Source of the DNA: Corallococcus soli
GTDB taxonomy: Bacteria; Myxococcota; Myxococcia; Myxococcales; Myxococcaceae
Direction: 5' to 3'
DNA: 64,000 nt
Assembly (NCBI RefSeq): GCF_014930455.1
Contig: NZ_JAAIYO010000001.1
Location: 1,178,001-1,242,000, forward strand
Part shown: positions 33,081 to 63,196 of the stretch, in pieces
Layout: every line of letters begins with the position of its first letter
How positions within the stretch are numbered: the first letter of the stretch is position 1
Notes under the pieces: model-generated
The model's input: the letters and a program-made list of their open reading frames with translations, nothing else
Told to the model about the DNA's origin: nothing
Database searches by the model: none
Position numbers and translations under genes: made by a program

Positions 33081-33893
33081 ATGGCGTCGCGCGCACCTGC
33101 TTCCACCCGTCCCCTCGCCGTCGTGACCGGGGCCTCCAGCGGCATCGGCTACGAACTGGCGAAGCAGTTCGCCAGGAACGGCTTCGACCTGGTCATCGCC
33201 GCGGAGGACCCGGGCATCGTGGGGGTCGTCGCCGCCTTTGAGGGCCTGGGCGCCTGGGTGAAGAGCGTGCAGGTGGACCTGGCGAAGGCCGAGGGTGTCC
33301 AGAAGCTCCACTCCACCCTCCAGCAACTGGGCCGCCCCGTGGACGCCATCGCCATCAACGCGGGCGTGGGCGTGGGCGGCGACTTCGCCCGGCAGACGGA
33401 CCTCCAGGCGGAGCTGAACCTCATCAACCTCAACGTCACCTCGTCGGTGCACCTGGCGAAGCTGGTGCTGAAGGACATGGTGGCCCGCAACCAGGGGCGC
33501 GTCCTGTTCACCTCCTCCATCGCGGCCACCATGCCCGGGCCCTTCGAGGCCGTGTACGCGGCGTCCAAGTCCTTCCTGCTCTCCTTCTCCGAGGCCCTGC
33601 GCAACGAGCTGAAGGACACGAAGATCACCGTGACGGCCCTGATGCCGGGCCCCACGGAGACGAACTTCTTCCACCGCGCGGGCATGGACGACACCCGGGT
33701 CGGCGCGCAGAAGAAGGACAGCGCGGAGGAGGTGGCCCGCCAGGGCTACGAGGCGCTGATGGCGGGCAAGGACAAGGTCATCGCGGGCTCGCTCAGCAAC
33801 AAGGTGATGGCGGTGGCCGCGGCGGTGCTGCCCCAGCCGGTGGCGGCCGAGGGCCACCGCAGGCTGTCCGAGCCGGGGTCCGCGAAGCACTGA
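33081..33893 (+). CDS. Short-chain dehydrogenase/reductase
   Basis: 270 residues, classical SDR. The cofactor motif is TGASSGIG (residues 16-23), NAGVGVGG follows, and the catalytic residues are Ser in LFTSSIAATMPG and Tyr159/Lys163 in VYAASKSFLLS. The substrate is unknown; an early acidic residue after the second strand (IAAEDP) hints at NAD(H) or a mixed preference. It stands alone between the Ntn-hydrolase and the GH71/99-like gene, with 125 bases of upstream sequence. Confidence 0.9.
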   Translation: MASRAPASTRPLAVVTGASSGIGYELAKQFARNGFDLVIAAEDPGIVGVVAAFEGLGAWVKSVQVDLAKAEGVQKLHSTLQQLGRPVDAIAINAGVGVGGDFARQTDLQAELNLINLNVTSSVHLAKLVLKDMVARNQGRVLFTSSIAATMPGPFEAVYAASKSFLLSFSEALRNELKDTKITVTALMPGPTETNFFHRAGMDDTRVGAQKKDSAEEVARQGYEALMAGKDKVIAGSLSNKVMAVAAAVLPQPVAAEGHRRLSEPGSAKH

Positions 33894-33921: not shown

Positions 33922-35634
33922 CTACAGCTTGATGACCGACACGTCGTCCATGTGGACGAAGTTGGCGGTGTTGCCGGTGAGGGCCCGCGTGTGGAAGCCG
34001 AACTCCAGGAAGCCGCCCGTCACGGACACGGCGGGCGTCTCCACCTGGGTCCAGCCCCCGTACGTGCCCAGCGCCGTGAACGCGAACGTGCACGCGACGC
34101 ACGCCTTCACCTGGAAGCGCGCCATGTCGAAGCCGCCGCCCTTCCGCACCCACGCGCGGACCTTGTAGTTGCCGGACGGGAGCCCGGAGAGCGCCTGGTA
34201 CGTCCACGTCTCGAAGGGCGCGCCGCTCCAGTGCGTCAGGTGGTTCGCGCTGTCGTGCCCGCCGTTGTACGTCTCCGAGAAGGCCGCGCCCGCGGTGTTG
34301 TTGGGCGTCCACGTCGTCCAGCCCGCCATGCCGGACTCGAAGCCTCCGTTGGTGACGGACACGCCCGTGCCACCGCCGCCCCCGTTGAGGATGTTGCGCG
34401 CCTGGGTGACGTTCAGCGAGGCCAGCGCGGCGGCGGCCTGGTTGAGCTGCGCCTGCTTGTTGCCGTCCCCCGCGTACTGCTTGCGCTGCTGGAAGAGCGT
34501 GTGGATGAGCTCCAGCTCGCTCTGCGAATAGGGCACGCCCAGCTTCTGCTGGAGCGACGTGAGGAAGCCGTAGCCGAACTCACGCGTGGGTTCGATCATC
34601 GTCCCCTCGCCGTAGTCGTTCCAGGTGTTGAGCTGAAGGTGCTGGATGCTGGCCGCGTTCTTCGCCAGGTCCAGCGTCTGGTTGAAGCTGTCCAGGCCGT
34701 TGTGGGCAATCTCCCAGGTGGGCCCGGGCCAGCCGCCCGCCGCGTAGAACGACCGGAAGCCCGGGTAGACGGAGCCGAACTTCAGGGGCGACGGATGGGT
34801 GTTGTAGAAGTGCGTGAGGCCCGCCATGAAGTCCGGGTAGATCCACGCGAACTCGCCCTTCGCGTTGCTGCCCGCCTCACCCGACTCGTGCCAGAGCGTC
34901 AGGAAGGTGGGCTTCTGGCTCAGCGGTGAGAAGACGTTCGTCCACTCCCCGGGGGACTGGAACGTCTGCGGCCCGAAGACGAGCAGCAGCGGCGCGTTGT
35001 CCGGCCGGATGTAGTTGGGCTGGTTGAAGTACCGGTCGCGCAGGTACGCCATGTCGTTGCGCGCGGCGCCCGGCTTGTCGGTGATGAAGCCACCGTTGTA
35101 GGCGAAGGTGACGTTGTGGTCCTCGTACACCACCGCGAAGTCCAGCCCCACCGCGGCCGTCTGCGCGATGATGGCTTCGCTGTTGGCCCGGTTCTTCGGG
35201 TAGTCGAACGCGTTGATGGTGCCCGGCCAGTCGATGAGCACCCCGTCCACGCCCGCGTACTTCATGAGCAGCAGCTGGTACTCGATGACGTCCCGGTCCC
35301 CGGAGCCATACGGCCCGATGAGCGGGTAGTAGTGCGAGGCAATCTGCCGCCGCCCGGTGCCGTCCACCACGTCCGGGTTCTGGTTGGCCATGGTCCAGTG
35401 GATGCCCCACGCCCCATTGCCCGACGTGGCCCGCGTCTCGAACCAGGGCATCAGGTGCACGTACACCTTCTTGCCCACCGCCTTGGGGACCTTCACCGCC
35501 ACGCCCGCGCGCCGCGCGTCCAGTTCGGGGCCGGGCCCCACCGCGCCCTCCACCGGAGCCGGAGCGCCACACCCCGCGCCCATCAGCCCCAACAGCGCGC
35601 ACGCCCCGAGCGAAATCCAATCCTGATGTCTCAT
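33922..35634 (-). CDS. GH71/GH99-like glycoside hydrolase lipoprotein with C-terminal carbohydrate-binding-like domain
   Basis: 570 residues. The signal peptide ends in the lipobox LMGAGC (Cys22). The catalytic-like part (about 50-400) resembles GH71/GH99-type barrels: KVYVHLMPWFETR, GIHWTMANQNPD, YAGVDGVLIDWPG, FAVVYEDHNVTF and NTWNDYGEGTMIEPT. Acidic residues in the VDGVLIDW and NDYGEG segments are catalytic candidates. A Gly linker (GGGGG) leads to a beta-rich domain (VTNGGFESGMAGWTTW, to the end) like carbohydrate-binding modules. Predicted to cut alpha- or beta-linked glucan/mannan at the cell surface. The ATG at 35634 and its AGGAG lie inside a long hairpin. Confidence 0.82.
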   Translation of the reverse strand: MRHQDWISLGACALLGLMGAGCGAPAPVEGAVGPGPELDARRAGVAVKVPKAVGKKVYVHLMPWFETRATSGNGAWGIHWTMANQNPDVVDGTGRRQIASHYYPLIGPYGSGDRDVIEYQLLLMKYAGVDGVLIDWPGTINAFDYPKNRANSEAIIAQTAAVGLDFAVVYEDHNVTFAYNGGFITDKPGAARNDMAYLRDRYFNQPNYIRPDNAPLLLVFGPQTFQSPGEWTNVFSPLSQKPTFLTLWHESGEAGSNAKGEFAWIYPDFMAGLTHFYNTHPSPLKFGSVYPGFRSFYAAGGWPGPTWEIAHNGLDSFNQTLDLAKNAASIQHLQLNTWNDYGEGTMIEPTREFGYGFLTSLQQKLGVPYSQSELELIHTLFQQRKQYAGDGNKQAQLNQAAAALASLNVTQARNILNGGGGGTGVSVTNGGFESGMAGWTTWTPNNTAGAAFSETYNGGHDSANHLTHWSGAPFETWTYQALSGLPSGNYKVRAWVRKGGGFDMARFQVKACVACTFAFTALGTYGGWTQVETPAVSVTGGFLEFGFHTRALTGNTANFVHMDDVSVIKL

Positions 35635-35692
35635 GTGAACAGGCTCCTGACCGGAGGACGCTCCCCCGGGCAGGAGCCCGTTAACATGAGAC
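35628..35692 (-). promoter_or_regulatory. Long hairpin sequestering the start site of the GH71/99-like gene
   Basis: Bases 35628-35649 and 35671-35692 are inverted repeats of 22 bases matching at 20. On the minus-strand mRNA one mismatch becomes a G-U pair, leaving one true mismatch. The 21-base spacer can pair partly with itself. The downstream arm contains both the AGGAG site and the ATG (35634), so folding would hide them. The upstream arm holds another ATG (35687) that opens an 18-codon frame ending in TGA at 35631-35633, overlapping the real start. Confidence 0.75.
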
Positions 35693-35700
35693 GCTATCAA

Positions 35701-35722
35701 CCAGGAATAGCAGCAATCCTGG
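35701..35722 (-). terminator. Hairpin after the DUF3857 gene
   Basis: CCAGGA (35701-35706) and TCCTGG (35717-35722) form a perfect 6-base stem with a 10-base loop, 19 bases past the stop of the DUF3857/TPR gene on the minus strand. It lies immediately before the long hairpin of the next gene. It could terminate or slow transcription between the two genes. No U-tract is present. Confidence 0.4.
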
Positions 35723-35740
35723 AATGTCGTGTCGCCGTGG

Positions 35741-38700
35741 CTACTTCTTCACGAGGAACAGCTCGCGCACCTGGAGCAGGTCCACGTCCCCGGCGAAGGC
35801 GGAGAACTTCTCGTACTGGGCGGGGGTGACGCGGGCGCGGGGCAGCAGGAGGGACTCCGCGATGGAGAGCGTGCGGCCGTCCTGCTTCTCCTCGCGGGTG
35901 TAGCGGCCGAACTCGCTGTCCACCTTCAGTCCCGCCTGCGGGTCGCTGAGCTTCCAGCCCTGGGGCATGGTGAGGGTGACGCTCGTGCGGCTGGCCTCCG
36001 TGTCGTCGATGAAGAGCGGCGTGGTGCGGGAGCTCACCTGCACGTAGCGCCGGCCCAGCAGGGCGGGGAAGGTGAGGGGGCCCATGGCCATGCGGCCGTC
36101 GCCCTCCATGCGCCCGAAGCGGGGCACGGTGAACGCGTAGCGCAGCACGAAGGGCGCGCCGACCTCCTCCGTGCGCTCCAGCTTCACGGACGACAGCTCC
36201 GCGCCGCCGAAGTAGCGCGCCACCGCGCCCTGGAGCGCCTGGTTGCGGCTCTCCGCGGAGAGCTGCTCGAAGGCCTCGGCGATCTGCGCGGCGTCGAAGC
36301 CGGAGTAGGTCTCCTCGCCCTGGCCGCTGAGCTTGCCGTCCGCGCCAATCTCCAGGGTGAGCTTCACGCTCTTGCCCTCGCGCGGCTGGAGCGGGGGCGT
36401 CTTCACCTTCTGCAGCGGCTTGCCGGGCTCCGGCAGGAGGTACGCCTCGCGCTCGCCCATGGCCGACTCCGGCAGCTGCCCGAAGGGGCCGAAGCGCACC
36501 GACGTGTCCAGCCACAGCGGGGACTCGCCCGGCACCTCCACGCGCAGCGCCGCGTAGGGCAGCAGCGCGTCCGCCGGGAACAGGTAGGGGGCCGGGTCGG
36601 TGTGGAAGGTGCGCACCGCCGCCACGCGCGACGGGATGCCCAGCGTCTCCAGGCCCGCCTTCATCACCGACAGCCGGCTGCCCCGGTCCTGCGCCACGGT
36701 GGCGGCCGCAGACTGCGCGAGGCTCGCGTCACGTCCGGAGAAGCGCTTCATCACCGCGGAGTGCAGCGCCTTCACCGCCTCCAGGCCCTCCTTGCCCTGG
36801 GTGGCTTCGCGCGCGAACGCCTCCACCTCCGCGGTGCGCAGCCACCGGTCCTGGAAGGCGTCGCCGTACACGCGCGCCAGCCCGTCGTTGCCCGTGTCGC
36901 CCGCGCCCACCATGACGAAGGGCAGGTATTCGTTGCCCGTGGGCGGCGCGTCCGGCTCCGGGAGGAACGGCGGCACGCGGCGCGCGTCGTAGTGGAACAC
37001 CTCCACGTCGCCCTTCACCTCCGGGGGCGGCGCCTTCATGCCGTGCGCGTCCACCTTCAGGCCGCTGCCCTTGGGCGCGACGACGGTGTACGTGCTCCAC
37101 GCGTTCGGCTGGTTGGCGATCTGGAAGTAGAAGGCGGACGCGGTGAAGCCCGGCTGCGCGGGGCCACGCTCGCCTTCGGCCAGCAGGTATTCGACCTCCA
37201 CGGAGTCACCCACCTGCACGCCGGGGAGGCTGACGGAGTCCTTGCCCTCGAAGTTCTCCGGCTCCAGCACGCGGCCGTCCGCCTTGAGCGTGCGCAGCGC
37301 CAGCACCTGCGCGCCCCGCGGGATGTTCACCTCCGCGATCTCCTGCACGCCCGACTGCTCCAGCGCCTTCTGGATGGTGTGGATGCGGTTGACGAGCGAG
37401 CCGTCCTCGTAGGCGCGCACCGCCGCCGCGTCCAGGACGTACACGGCCGCGCTGCCGCCGGTGATGGGGGCCGCCTCGTACGCCTTCAGCGCCTCCTTGC
37501 CGTCGATGGCGTGGTCCGCGAGCAGCTCCTTGCCCGTCTTCGCGCGCTCCACCGCGCGGCGCAGCGGCAGGTCGCTGCCGTCCAGCTTCAGCGCCTTCTC
37601 CCGCAGCTTCAGCGCCTCCTTGCCCTGGCCCGCGTACTCGCGCACGTCCGCCATCCGCTTGAGCAGCTCCGTGTTGCGGGGCCACACGTCGGAGAGCGCC
37701 TGGAGCACCTTCGCCGCGTCGTCGTAGCGGCGCAGGCTGACGTAGGCGCCGGACAGCGCCGCCGCGGTGGTGAGGTTGTCGGGGTCCTGCGCGAGCAGCC
37801 GCGCGTAGCCCTTCGCCGCCGCCTCCATGTCCCCGCGCGTGCGCAGGTGCTCCACGAGCCGCGCGTCCGCGCCGGGGCAGCCCTCCTGGGCCTTCACCAG
37901 CTCGTCGGTGCGCGCCACCGCGTCCCGGCGCCGCGCCAGCGAATACTGGAGGCCCAGCGCCTCGCACAGCCCGGGCTGGGCTTCCAGCGCCGAGGCCAGG
38001 GCCGTCTCCGCCTGGGCGTCCACGTCCAGCGCCAGCGCCGCGCGGGCGAGCAGCAGGTGCACCGGGAAGCCCGCGGGCTTCACCGCGTCGCGCGCCGTCT
38101 TCAGCGTGTCCAGCGCGCTGGCCGCCTGGCCGTCATCCAGGAAGAGGTCCGCGCGCAGGAGCAGCGCGCCCACGTTGCCCGGGTCCTTCGCCAGCGCCGC
38201 CTCCAGGTCGCGCGTGGCCCGGCCGCGCGCCACCTTGGACGGGATGCCGCGGTCCTGCGCGGCCTGCTCCGCGCGCAGGGTCAGCACCGCGGGCGTCGTG
38301 GCCGCGAGCTTCGCCATCAGCCGCCGGGTGCCGTCCGCGTCGCGCGACAGGCCGTCGCGCACGGCGAGGAACGCGCCCAGCGTCTCCCCGGCCTCGGCCT
38401 GGAGCGTCCGGGCCAGGTCCTCCGCCCCCGGGAACACGGAGGGGGCCTCCGCCTCGTCCAGGGTGGCGTTCCAGCGCGGCGCGGGGCCGGTGGCGGCGGT
38501 GAAGCGCACCTGGGACGCGCTCCCGTCCGCCTTGATGAGCGCGAACGTGAGGCCGCCCTGGCTGTTGTCCTTGGCCAGCTTCACGACGAAGCGGTGCTTG
38601 CCCGCGGGCAGCTCCAGCGCCTTCACGGACACCGTGGAGGTGGTGCGGGCCCAGTCGCGGCGCTCCAGCACCGGGGCGCCGTCCATCAGCACGCGGTGCG

Positions 38701-39514
38701 ACGTCTGGCTCACCGTGCGCAGCACGTACACGCCGGCCTCGGCCACCTCCGCGTCGATGCCCAGCGCGTACATGTCCCCGTGACCGGGCTCGCCGCCCAG
38801 GTCCAGCCGGCCGTCCGGCGAGCGCAGCGTGCGCACCGTCAGCGGCCCGTACGCGCCCTTCAAGGGCCCCGCGAACGAGCCGTCCTTCTCCGGCCCGATG
38901 GGCTCGTCGATGGACAGGACGTGGAAGGGCGAGAAGGGGCCCACCACCGAGGCCTCGCCCGCGCCTCCCAGGTCCTTGAGCGCCTGGGCCTGGGCGGCCG
39001 CGTCCACGCGGAGGCTCGCCACCGACAGGCGCGCGGCGCGCAGGAGGTAGGCCGTCTCGCCCTGGGCGCCCGCGGCGAGCGCGGCGTCCACACCCTTGAG
39101 GATGGCGTCGTCCTCCGCGCGCGACGTGCCCACGCGGTCCAGCACGTACCGGGCGGCGACGGCGGCCAGCGCGTGGCGGGGGGCGCGCTTCACCAGCTCC
39201 AGCGACGCCGCGAGCGCGCGGTCGGACTGGCCCTTGCGCCGGGCGAGCAGCGCCTGCCCCTCCAGGGCGTAAGGGTCGCCGGGGTCCTTCTGCACGGCGG
39301 CGTCGAAGCGCTGCTGGGCCAGCACCGCGTCACCCGCGACGAGGTACGCGTGGAAGCCCGCGAACGCGAGCGTGCGCGCCTCCACGTCACCCTTGCCAGC
39401 GCGCTCGGCGGCGGACTCGAGCACGTGGGGCGCGACGACGGAGGACGGCCGGGGACAGCCGGTGAGGCCGGCGACGAGGGCGAGTGCGGTCAGGCCGCGG
39501 CGGAAGGTGCGCAT
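35741..39514 (-). CDS. Giant TPR/DUF3857 lipoprotein with degenerate transglutaminase-like domain
   Basis: 1257 residues. The lipobox is AGLTGC (Cys20). Residues about 35-160 and 420-690 are TPR-rich. The middle (about 190-330) is beta-rich (GVYVLRTVSQTSHRVLMDG). About 700-860 is a DUF3857 domain (HTIQKALEQSGVQEIAEVNIPRG). Residues about 915-1010 align in layout with a transglutaminase core, but the catalytic Cys region reads DRGSRLSVMKAGLETLGIPS instead of GDCKDKA-type, and the His position reads YAALRVEVPG. The enzyme is therefore probably inactive. A DUF3858-like beta domain ends the protein. The ATG at 39514 lacks a clear Shine-Dalgarno sequence. Confidence 0.85.
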   Translation of the reverse strand: MRTFRRGLTALALVAGLTGCPRPSSVVAPHVLESAAERAGKGDVEARTLAFAGFHAYLVAGDAVLAQQRFDAAVQKDPGDPYALEGQALLARRKGQSDRALAASLELVKRAPRHALAAVAARYVLDRVGTSRAEDDAILKGVDAALAAGAQGETAYLLRAARLSVASLRVDAAAQAQALKDLGGAGEASVVGPFSPFHVLSIDEPIGPEKDGSFAGPLKGAYGPLTVRTLRSPDGRLDLGGEPGHGDMYALGIDAEVAEAGVYVLRTVSQTSHRVLMDGAPVLERRDWARTTSTVSVKALELPAGKHRFVVKLAKDNSQGGLTFALIKADGSASQVRFTAATGPAPRWNATLDEAEAPSVFPGAEDLARTLQAEAGETLGAFLAVRDGLSRDADGTRRLMAKLAATTPAVLTLRAEQAAQDRGIPSKVARGRATRDLEAALAKDPGNVGALLLRADLFLDDGQAASALDTLKTARDAVKPAGFPVHLLLARAALALDVDAQAETALASALEAQPGLCEALGLQYSLARRRDAVARTDELVKAQEGCPGADARLVEHLRTRGDMEAAAKGYARLLAQDPDNLTTAAALSGAYVSLRRYDDAAKVLQALSDVWPRNTELLKRMADVREYAGQGKEALKLREKALKLDGSDLPLRRAVERAKTGKELLADHAIDGKEALKAYEAAPITGGSAAVYVLDAAAVRAYEDGSLVNRIHTIQKALEQSGVQEIAEVNIPRGAQVLALRTLKADGRVLEPENFEGKDSVSLPGVQVGDSVEVEYLLAEGERGPAQPGFTASAFYFQIANQPNAWSTYTVVAPKGSGLKVDAHGMKAPPPEVKGDVEVFHYDARRVPPFLPEPDAPPTGNEYLPFVMVGAGDTGNDGLARVYGDAFQDRWLRTAEVEAFAREATQGKEGLEAVKALHSAVMKRFSGRDASLAQSAAATVAQDRGSRLSVMKAGLETLGIPSRVAAVRTFHTDPAPYLFPADALLPYAALRVEVPGESPLWLDTSVRFGPFGQLPESAMGEREAYLLPEPGKPLQKVKTPPLQPREGKSVKLTLEIGADGKLSGQGEETYSGFDAAQIAEAFEQLSAESRNQALQGAVARYFGGAELSSVKLERTEEVGAPFVLRYAFTVPRFGRMEGDGRMAMGPLTFPALLGRRYVQVSSRTTPLFIDDTEASRTSVTLTMPQGWKLSDPQAGLKVDSEFGRYTREEKQDGRTLSIAESLLLPRARVTPAQYEKFSAFAGDVDLLQVRELFLVKK

Positions 39515-39599
39515 AGGGGAGTCGAGGGATAATGCAATCCCCCCGGCGAGGCCATATTCCCCTTGAGGTGCGTGTGCGAAGTCGGCGCCGCCTGTTGTC

Positions 39600-41489
39600 C
39601 TAGCGGCGCTTCGTGGACTTGGCGGGGGCCGCCTTGACCGGCTGGCGCTTGGGCGGAGGCGGCGGCGGCGCACGCTTGGGCACCACCGCCTTGGTGGGCA
39701 CCGCGGCGGCCACCGTGCGCTGCGTCGCGGCCACCACGGGCGAGGACGGGGTTTCCGCCACGGGGGCGGGCCGGTCCACGGCGTAGGTGAGCCCTTCGAT
39801 GCTGCACGTGCCTTCGATGCAGCCGACCGCGGGCGTGGGCGGTTCACCGAACTGGCCCTGCCAGTCCGGGCCCAGGTTCAGCGGCTCCGCGATGGGGCGC
39901 TGATCCGCGCCCTGCCCGATGAAGGCCTGCAACACGCCCTCCTCGGTGACGAACAGCTCCAGGCGCGCCTCGCCCTGGGGGGACGGCTGGCCCAGCATGG
40001 TGCCGCTGCGCTCGCCCAGCGCCCACTCCAGGGCCAGGGGGGCGCCCGCGCCATGGTGCACCAGCGCCACGTAGCGGCCATCCCGGCCCACCAGCATCAT
40101 CGCGACCACCGGATCCGGCGGCGGGCCCTTCAGCCATTCCTGCAGGCGGCGCTTCAGCGTGGGGGGAGGCGCTTCGGCGCGCACGCGCGCGGTCAGTCGC
40201 GCGACCCCGCCCACGAACCCCACCACGTCCGCGCGCACCCGCCCCACGCGCGTCAGGTCCCGCTTCTCCTCCTCGTTCGGGAAGAGGGGGAGGTCCAGGG
40301 GCGGGAAGACGATGGCCTTGTTCTCGAAGACGGCGGGCCTGCCGGCCAGGGGCATCGCCAGTTGGTCGGGGCCCTCGCCCACCAGCACCCGCTGCTTGTT
40401 CGGGAGCACGTCCTCCCGGCGCCCGGGGGCGGTGCGGTTCGTGTTCGCGTTCTTGTGCTCCGCCAGGATGGCGGCGCCCGGCGGCCCCTGCCGCTCACGG
40501 ACCTGTCCGCTGCGGTAGTACTCGAAGCCCAGCACGCCCACCGCCGATACCACCAGCAGCGTCGCGGCCGTCTGCGCCGCCACGCGCACCACGCCCTTGG
40601 CCGTCCGCTTCGCCCGCTGCAGCCGCGTCAGCCGCATGGGCGGCATGGACAGCAGGCTGCCGGGGACCAGCGGCTCCAGCTCCGCGATGAGCGCGCCCAC
40701 CGTCTGGTAGCGGTCGTCCGGATCCGGCTTGAGGCACCGCATCACGATGGCGTCCACGCGCGGGTCCAGCCCGGAGCGCTTGCGCGACGGCGGATCAAAG
40801 GTGCCCAGCGGCACCTCGCCCGTGAAGGTCTCGTAGAGGATGACGCCCAGGGAGAAGATGTCCGCCCGGGCGTCCGCGCTCTTCGCGTCCACGCGCTGCT
40901 CGGGCGCCATGTACGAGATGGTCCCCATGGACACGTGCGTGGACGTGAGCGCGTAGCGCGACGCCACCGTGGAGTCGTCCAGGAACGACGCGAGCCCGAA
41001 GTCGGACACCTTCGCGATGCCGCCGGCCTGCTGATCCAGCAGGATGTTCTCCGGCTTCAGGTCGCGGTGGATGACGCCCCGGCCGTGCGCGTATTCGATG
41101 GCGCGGCAGATCTCCAGCATCCGCCGCAGCAGCACCTGCGTCTCCTGCTGCGGGGTGCGCATGAGCTCGCGCAGGGACGGCCCGTCCACGAACTCCATCA
41201 CCAGGTAGTAGGTGCTGTCCGTCTTCCCCTTGTCGACGATGGCGACGACGTGGGGGTGGCTCAGGGTCGCCAGCGCGGCGGCTTCCTTCTGGAAGCGCGC
41301 GATGAACGACGGGTCCTTGGCCAGCTCCGAATTGAGCAGCTTGACCGCGACCGTGCGGCCTAGCGAGAGCTGGGTGGCCTTGTGGACCTCCCCCATGCCT
41401 CCGGTACCGACGAGCTTCTCCAGGCGGTAGCCGCTGATGAGGTCAGGGGTCCGGGCACGGCTGATGGCGGTGGGCTCAATCGAGGACAT
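39600..41489 (-). CDS. Hanks-type serine/threonine protein kinase with one membrane span
   Basis: 629 residues. The kinase domain is at about 21-290: glycine loop VGTGGMGEVH, VAVK with Lys50, HRDLKPEN (141-148), DFG (163-165), APEQ and a C-lobe with PDPDDRYQTV. All catalytic residues are present. A membrane span lies near 315-335 (AATLLVVSAVGVLGFEYY). The outer part (about 340-560) is of unknown type and includes a beta-rich stretch (VALVHHGAGAPLALEWALG). The C-terminus is a Lys/Pro/Ala-rich basic tail. It lies 85 bases upstream of the DUF3857 lipoprotein on the same strand and may share regulation. Confidence 0.92.
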   Translation of the reverse strand: MSSIEPTAISRARTPDLISGYRLEKLVGTGGMGEVHKATQLSLGRTVAVKLLNSELAKDPSFIARFQKEAAALATLSHPHVVAIVDKGKTDSTYYLVMEFVDGPSLRELMRTPQQETQVLLRRMLEICRAIEYAHGRGVIHRDLKPENILLDQQAGGIAKVSDFGLASFLDDSTVASRYALTSTHVSMGTISYMAPEQRVDAKSADARADIFSLGVILYETFTGEVPLGTFDPPSRKRSGLDPRVDAIVMRCLKPDPDDRYQTVGALIAELEPLVPGSLLSMPPMRLTRLQRAKRTAKGVVRVAAQTAATLLVVSAVGVLGFEYYRSGQVRERQGPPGAAILAEHKNANTNRTAPGRREDVLPNKQRVLVGEGPDQLAMPLAGRPAVFENKAIVFPPLDLPLFPNEEEKRDLTRVGRVRADVVGFVGGVARLTARVRAEAPPPTLKRRLQEWLKGPPPDPVVAMMLVGRDGRYVALVHHGAGAPLALEWALGERSGTMLGQPSPQGEARLELFVTEEGVLQAFIGQGADQRPIAEPLNLGPDWQGQFGEPPTPAVGCIEGTCSIEGLTYAVDRPAPVAETPSSPVVAATQRTVAAAVPTKAVVPKRAPPPPPPKRQPVKAAPAKSTKRR

Positions 41490-61024: not shown

Positions 61025-63196
<2,172 letters not shown>

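Follow-up and report, generated by a model that had tools for sequence, protein, structure and literature searches.

A 65-nt hairpin covers the translation start of a WbsX/GH99-like lipoprotein gene in the window (the whole 64-kb stretch of the Corallococcus soli genome that was analysed), and is present in all eight Corallococcus genomes with this gene. The structure is real, conserved and well placed over the ribosome-binding site, and, according to folding calculations, any RNA containing both arms would be blocked for translation by it. We favour, with moderate confidence, given that the transcription start is predicted and that covariation is uninformative, the interpretation of this hairpin as a read-through insulator, with the enzyme made only from its own promoter. 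In silico support comes from the hairpin itself, its conservation, the opening energies, its single copy in the genome and the missing downstream hairpin of the neighbouring gene; the promoter, the start site, the occurrence of read-through and its effect on translation are what we infer.

In the proposed mechanism, polymerase running on from the upstream gene, which encodes a TPR/DUF3857 protein, would copy both arms, and in the read-through RNA the 31-nt-arm hairpin would bury the Shine-Dalgarno sequence and the ATG, so that this RNA would not be translated. The -10 box of the lipoprotein gene's own promoter would sit inside the 5' arm; the native RNA would then start near position 35671, past the anti-Shine-Dalgarno CTCCT, retain at most the hairpin tip and be translatable. 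As only the RNA from the own promoter would be translatable, the enzyme would be made only when that promoter fires. The features of the locus, in window coordinates, are as follows.

33922..35634 (-), WbsX/GH99-like lipoprotein gene, 570 aa
35628..35692 (-), hairpin, 65 nt, extending from the proposed -10 region to codon 3, found in 8/8 Corallococcus carriers
35628..35658 (-), 3' arm, with AGGAG (35648-35644), ATG (35634-35632) and the next codons
35662..35692 (-), 5' arm, with the proposed -10 and the anti-Shine-Dalgarno CTCCTG (35676-35671)
35631..35687 (-), mini-ORF of 18 codons, overlapping frame in 2/8 genomes, judged not conserved
35671 (-), predicted transcription start, G, placed by standard spacing from the proposed -10
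35678..35686 (-), proposed extended -10, TG-T-TAACGG, inside the 5' arm, suggested by the dyad
35702..35707 (-), proposed -35-like box TTCCTG, 15 nt before TG(n)TA, belonging to a dyad common to orthologs from other genera
35701..35724 (-), second inverted repeat TTCCAGGATTGCTGCTATTCCTGG, a possible operator, overlapping the -35-like box
35741..39847 (-), upstream co-directional ORF (TPR, DUF3857) with the stop TAG at 35743-35741

Seventeen inverted repeats with arms of at least 16 nt placed at most 60 nt apart were identified in the whole 64-kb window, the hairpin at 35628-35692 being the first listed and the strongest. It is set on the minus strand between the stop codon of the TPR/DUF3857 gene and the lipoprotein ATG, 106 nt apart in the window, and has arms of 31 nt each, 87% complementary, with 3 nt of loop between them. 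The original prediction, made from the sequence of the window, described arms of 22 bases with 20 identical; the inverted repeat is real, but this arm length is too short. The AGGAG site and the ATG of the hydrolase gene do lie in the 3' arm, as it had claimed. The fold of 35740-35600 (141 nt, minus strand), suggested there as a check, has an energy of -72.2 kcal/mol (z -5.8), better than all 200 shuffles of the same piece (mean -48.1 kcal/mol). The 65-nt hairpin alone folds with -51.9 kcal/mol, and the range in the eight carriers, the diverged G017 included, is -34 to -52 kcal/mol. In silico, an RNA with two arms buries both the Shine-Dalgarno sequence and the start codon.

The lipoprotein itself scores above the Pfam cut-off for WbsX (PF14307, 37.4 vs 25.1), and below it for GH99 (PF16317, 32.3 vs 33) and GH71 (PF03659, 15.6 vs 34). 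All 23 full-length orthologs with loci, the window's included, were used for the comparison of leaders, matches to the C-terminal domain only (L025-L031, and others without a locus) being left out. Matches to the lipoprotein at E 1e-50 or better, full-length ones included, are found in 59 of the 96 family genomes; many of them cover only approximately residues 395-570, with 56-69% identity (33922-34377 (-), the C-terminal ~150 aa), and this part is perhaps a carbohydrate-binding domain common to other proteins of the family genomes. The convergent neighbour of the lipoprotein gene in the window (33081-33893 (+)) is a short-chain dehydrogenase. At that place, by eye, several non-carriers, such as G027, G020 and G018, have what we take to be the end of an isoaspartyl-peptidase-like gene, and G019 has the dehydrogenase; the neighbourhood of the lipoprotein gene is, as judged by eye, variable.

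The hairpin is a single-copy element. The 101-nt query finds one place in the own 9.4-Mb genome, and among 96 genomes of the family searched at E 0.001 or better, matches occur solely in eight genomes of one genus, the window's included; the eight matching leaders align as orthologs, and all adjoin the same upstream gene end. No match to the hairpin was found in the phage and plasmid records searched. A dispersed palindrome of the REP or MITE type, which the original prediction had considered, was therefore rejected. In pattern counts, the 15-base arm pattern with at most two mismatches occurs at 106 places in the own genome, compared to 56 for the reversed control, and single-arm relatives of the hairpin may exist elsewhere in this genome.

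Conservation was assessed in an alignment of the eight Corallococcus carriers, the window's genome included. All nine columns of GGGCTCCTG, located in the 5' arm, are invariant across these genomes (G017 has one extra base inserted after the first G), compared with 143 of 223 four-fold sites of the gene and 3 of 16 columns in the neighbouring spacer (a gap counting as a difference); by simple arithmetic, the chance of nine invariant columns at the four-fold rate is ~0.02, which is modest. In the 3' arm, 25 of the 27 examined columns are invariant. As for the pairs, 18 out of 29 are invariant, five have one-sided changes, one is changed on both sides, and five depart only by unpaired cells, while 94.4% of alignment cells pair, compared to 38–50% when the alignment is slid by 1–3 columns. 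Covariation across the eight genomes is not above chance, with 323 of 500 shuffles as high, and so says nothing for or against the fold; the search for compensatory changes in relatives, proposed in the original prediction, yields none that can be demonstrated.

The difference between the two kinds of RNA is pronounced in the calculated opening energies. Opening of the Shine-Dalgarno sequence in RNA with both arms costs 16.0–17.9 kcal/mol in 8/8 carriers, and 0.4–5.2 kcal/mol in RNA from the predicted start (0.8–5.3 when the RNA is extended a little at the 3' end). The site as a whole, from -17 to +3, takes 19.0–34.0 kcal/mol to open in read-through RNA and 6.1–12.8 kcal/mol in the predicted native RNA. 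In 15 orthologs from other genera, considered with 200-nt leaders, Shine-Dalgarno opening takes 0.1–7.6 kcal/mol, and the predicted-native Corallococcus values fall within this range. Further, with 150-nt leaders, the lipoprotein start has the highest opening energy of the ribosome site, 32.0, among 32 candidate starts in the window, a rough selection based on GC3, ORF length and the presence of a word resembling a Shine-Dalgarno sequence. The runner-up (27.2, at 61712) is inside a longer open frame and so is probably no true start, and 400 random sites average 13.2 and reach 24.3 at most.

The insulator model depends on the exact start position, as a start shifted 6 nt earlier raises the Shine-Dalgarno opening energy to 7.5–13.8 kcal/mol. 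In four of the eight genomes (G023, G021, G025, G017), the predicted native RNA folds at its very 5' end into a stem-loop formed by the hairpin tip. In the predicted native RNA the ATG of G025 is still paired (unpaired probability 0.00–0.01) and that of G017 mostly paired (0.09–0.23), which the model does not explain.

Seven other orthologs were classed, by a simple ORF test, as having a co-directional neighbour, and parallels in them are weak or absent. The whole-site difference between read-through and native RNA is just 0.3–3.2 kcal/mol in L011, L024, L016, L020 and L017 (the native start of L011 was assumed from a -10-like word), and the comparison yielded no predicted start for L013. L012 from Myxococcus, which has a co-directional neighbour and whose ATG is covered by an unrelated hairpin, shows a decrease for the whole site from 15.0 to 6.1, its native start also being assumed from a -10-like word, but the Shine-Dalgarno sequence alone behaves oppositely (0.1 to 4.9).

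The predicted start is based on a dyad, TTYYHG-N14-TGHTA, present upstream of 9 of the 12 orthologs outside Corallococcus and Myxococcus, a count to be read with the fact that the pattern was drawn from the same sequences, several of them close relatives. The three exceptions, L013, L016 and L020, are one base off in the first box. Other gaps, from 8 to 21, gave 0/12 orthologs, bar gap 8 with 1/12, and 300 shuffles per gap produced at most one dyad match. The dyad is found in 8/8 Corallococcus carriers at gap 15 with the second box relaxed, this box being inside the 5' arm; a further relaxed match at gap 19 is present in five of the eight. In the three Myxococcus orthologs searched, the dyad is absent. 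The dyad stands at a variable distance from the ATG (36 to 117 nt) in the orthologs while its gap is constant, as would suit a promoter.

The boxes do not match the sigma-70 consensus. The strict dyad has one match in the own genome, at the hairpin locus, with ~2 expected by chance from base composition, and this shows neither a regulon nor its absence. Given the lack of a sigma-70 match and an occurrence not above chance, the dyad may be a site for a gene-specific regulator, as far as sequence patterns suggest. The predicted +1, G35671, comes directly after the anti-Shine-Dalgarno CTCCT (35676-35672), and GGGCTCCTG, placed after the -10 but ahead of the predicted start, would be absent from transcripts of the native promoter. 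The comparative evidence thus predicts a start that lies beyond most of the 5' arm; the original prediction had named such a start as counting against its translational switch, and with it the mechanism shifts from switch to insulator. Our literature search, made in open-access papers and with few terms, found no paper on Corallococcus start sites.

The leaders of L013 and L016-L022, 106–125 nt long from TGnTA through ATG, have in common a conserved stem of the GCCTC...GAGGC type ahead of the Shine-Dalgarno sequence; 3 of the 22 predicted pairs show two-sided changes. Leaders of L013, L017, L018, L021 and L022 gave no match in Rfam. This stem is a predicted, different structured 5' leader of the same gene.

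The promoter evidence bears directly on a translational off-switch, in which every mRNA would start upstream of the 5' arm and a small RNA, protein or helicase would open the stem. We consider it unlikely. The extremely stable full fold, kept in 8/8 carriers, and the position of the gene's start as the most occluded of the 32 candidates would suit such a switch, but the conserved dyad is inside and just before the arm and so indicates no upstream start, a hairpin of -34 to -52 kcal/mol is hard to open, and the upstream stop, ~48 nt from the arm, is probably too far for terminating ribosomes to invade. In addition, the mini-ORF frame occurs in 2/8 genomes, no response to temperature is predicted up to 65 C, and no Rfam family is assigned.

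The original prediction was correct in that the 5'-arm ATG (35687) opens 18 codons in the window, with the TGA overlapping the real ATG; its suggestion that this mini-ORF acts as a translational switch is at variance with the comparison of carriers. The 5'-arm start codon is ATG in three and GTG in five of the eight genomes, and is 53 nt from the real ATG in the window, 52 nt in six genomes and 59 nt in G017. The frames opened by it have 5, 8, 18 or 20 codons; in four genomes they reach at least 80. Only the window and G017 have a short frame with the TGA over the gene's ATG (18 and 20 codons, respectively), and the two peptides differ up to their end, which the shared 3' arm encodes. A leader controlled by an upstream ORF, for which a conserved frame is expected, was rejected. 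The occurrence of a frame of this type in two separated genomes is noteworthy, though it is not conserved.

Opening of the stem by temperature, also put forward originally, finds no confirmation in silico: in folds of the window sequence only, the Shine-Dalgarno sequence is unpaired with probability 0.0001–0.0021 over 20 to 65 C, that is 0.2% even at 65 C. An RNA thermometer, whose stem would open within the growth range, was rejected. In the Rfam search, the sole hit of the window stretch has E 0.53 and 18.8 bits vs the gathering score of 50, and 12 related loci have nothing at gathering score.

The palindrome could act at the DNA level instead, as an operator bound by a transcription factor over the -10/start region, with the RNA fold as a by-product; this, too, seems improbable to us. 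It covers the stretch between the proposed -10 and the start codon, a region bound by repressors, and the second inverted repeat overlaps the -35-like box. The latter has the form TTCCAGGAAT-N6-ATTCCTGG in relatives, with 17 of 24 columns invariant in eight genomes, and one strict match in the own genome. Arms of usual operators are shorter than 31 nt, so the hairpin arms are long for this role, and the 101-nt query occurs just once in the genome. Moreover, seven relatives have G.U at one to three outer pairs that are G-C or A-U in the window, and so keep RNA pairing at lowered DNA symmetry; this argument is weak, given the five of 29 pairs departing only by unpaired cells.

For the read-through insulator, the 3' end of the upstream gene is of importance. 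In 8/8 non-carriers of the genus, a strong hairpin directly follows the upstream stop (85-nt fold, -42.1 to -56.8 kcal/mol), whereas in 8/8 carriers this stretch, whose end precedes the 3' arm, folds only with -23.4 to -30.3 kcal/mol. The non-carrier hairpin (L079, L083-L089) is conserved and GC-rich, of the CCGCGC...GCGCGG type, by eye without a T-run, and is perhaps a myxobacterial form of terminator or 3' end. Among 22 hand-chosen genomes of other genera, the upstream stop is followed within 75 nt by a hairpin of -20 kcal/mol or better in 15 and by none in seven; this comparison covered the 22 genomes and not the further other-genus loci L090-L099. As the 3' structure of the non-carriers is missing where the enzyme gene follows, read-through from the upstream gene in carriers is plausible on the strength of this comparison. 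In the tree of the upstream gene, seven carriers form a well supported clade, and G017 is across the midpoint root, without good support; the best tree requires no more than one change of the carrier state (support 36/26, 34% of bootstrap trees).

The same hairpins would fit a view in which the palindrome mainly serves the upstream gene, as a 3'-end or terminator-like structure in place of the non-carrier hairpin, its overlap with the ribosome site being incidental or an added benefit. The regular presence of a strong hairpin close after the upstream stop, both in non-carriers of the genus and in 15 of the 22 chosen genomes, is in line with it, but the minus strand at the locus showed no terminator-like site with a T-run, and such a role does not need the exact placement over the Shine-Dalgarno sequence, the ATG and the -10. 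We regard it as very unlikely.

There is likewise only a slim chance that the hairpin has no selected function and arose as an inverted duplication (template-switch mutation), its arms being kept as promoter and as ribosome site and coding sequence: the absent covariation signal and arms that by eye are unlike other-genus leaders are in line with this, but GGGCTCCTG is invariant though noncoding and outside the proposed -10, and all carriers, even the diverged G017, retain a fold of -34 to -52 kcal/mol.

Returning to the read-through insulator, it is favoured by the opening energies, the dyad inside the arm, the invariance of GGGCTCCTG, the absence of the neighbour's hairpin and the same layout in known systems; against it are the dyad's lack of sigma-70 fit and absence from Myxococcus, the sensitivity to the start position, the paired ATG in G025 and G017, and the lack of covariation.

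Layouts of this kind are known from mobile elements. In the leaders of the IS10 and IS50 transposase genes, transcripts entering from outside form a structure in which the end inverted repeat covers the ribosome site of the transposase, and native transcripts lack one arm. The Corallococcus hairpin is unlike these elements, being confined to one genomic place with no transposase noted beside it.

Closer parallels are provided by phage T4. According to published accounts, longer transcripts of gene e and I-TevI from upstream promoters form a hairpin hiding the ribosome site, and the late promoter immediately upstream produces RNA that does not have enough of the 5' strand and is translated (PMC3014915, PMC2988022). 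The layout of gene e (lysozyme) and I-TevI (homing endonuclease) is the same as proposed here, the differences being a chromosomal enzyme gene, unrelated sequence, predicted promoter and start, and no known temporal programme. Similarly, work on Bacillus subtilis sigG describes a hairpin of at least 20 pairs that cannot form in RNA from the sigG promoter, its proposed role being to keep RNA running in from the upstream spoIIG operon untranslated; a second small hairpin there also damps the native RNA (PMC5942855). The sigG leader shares the proposed read-through block with the Corallococcus locus and differs in gene, phylum and sequence. By analogy, the hairpin probably joins this known type of translational insulation, represented by T4 e, I-TevI and sigG. 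A search of open-access papers with few terms found no paper on this leader.

If the insulator interpretation is true, the hairpin would be a chromosomal myxobacterial case of a control known mainly from phage genes and sigG, with a natural comparison provided by the eight genomes of the same genus that have neither the gene nor the hairpin, and have a strong hairpin after the upstream gene instead. RNA-seq coverage of the lipoprotein gene then need not mean protein. A broader conjecture, to which we assign a low probability, is that palindromes joining promoter and ribosome site are a recurring myxobacterial device for accessory genes behind terminator-less housekeeping genes, L012 being perhaps a second, independently evolved case; if so, the sequence would tell the ribosome where the mRNA began.
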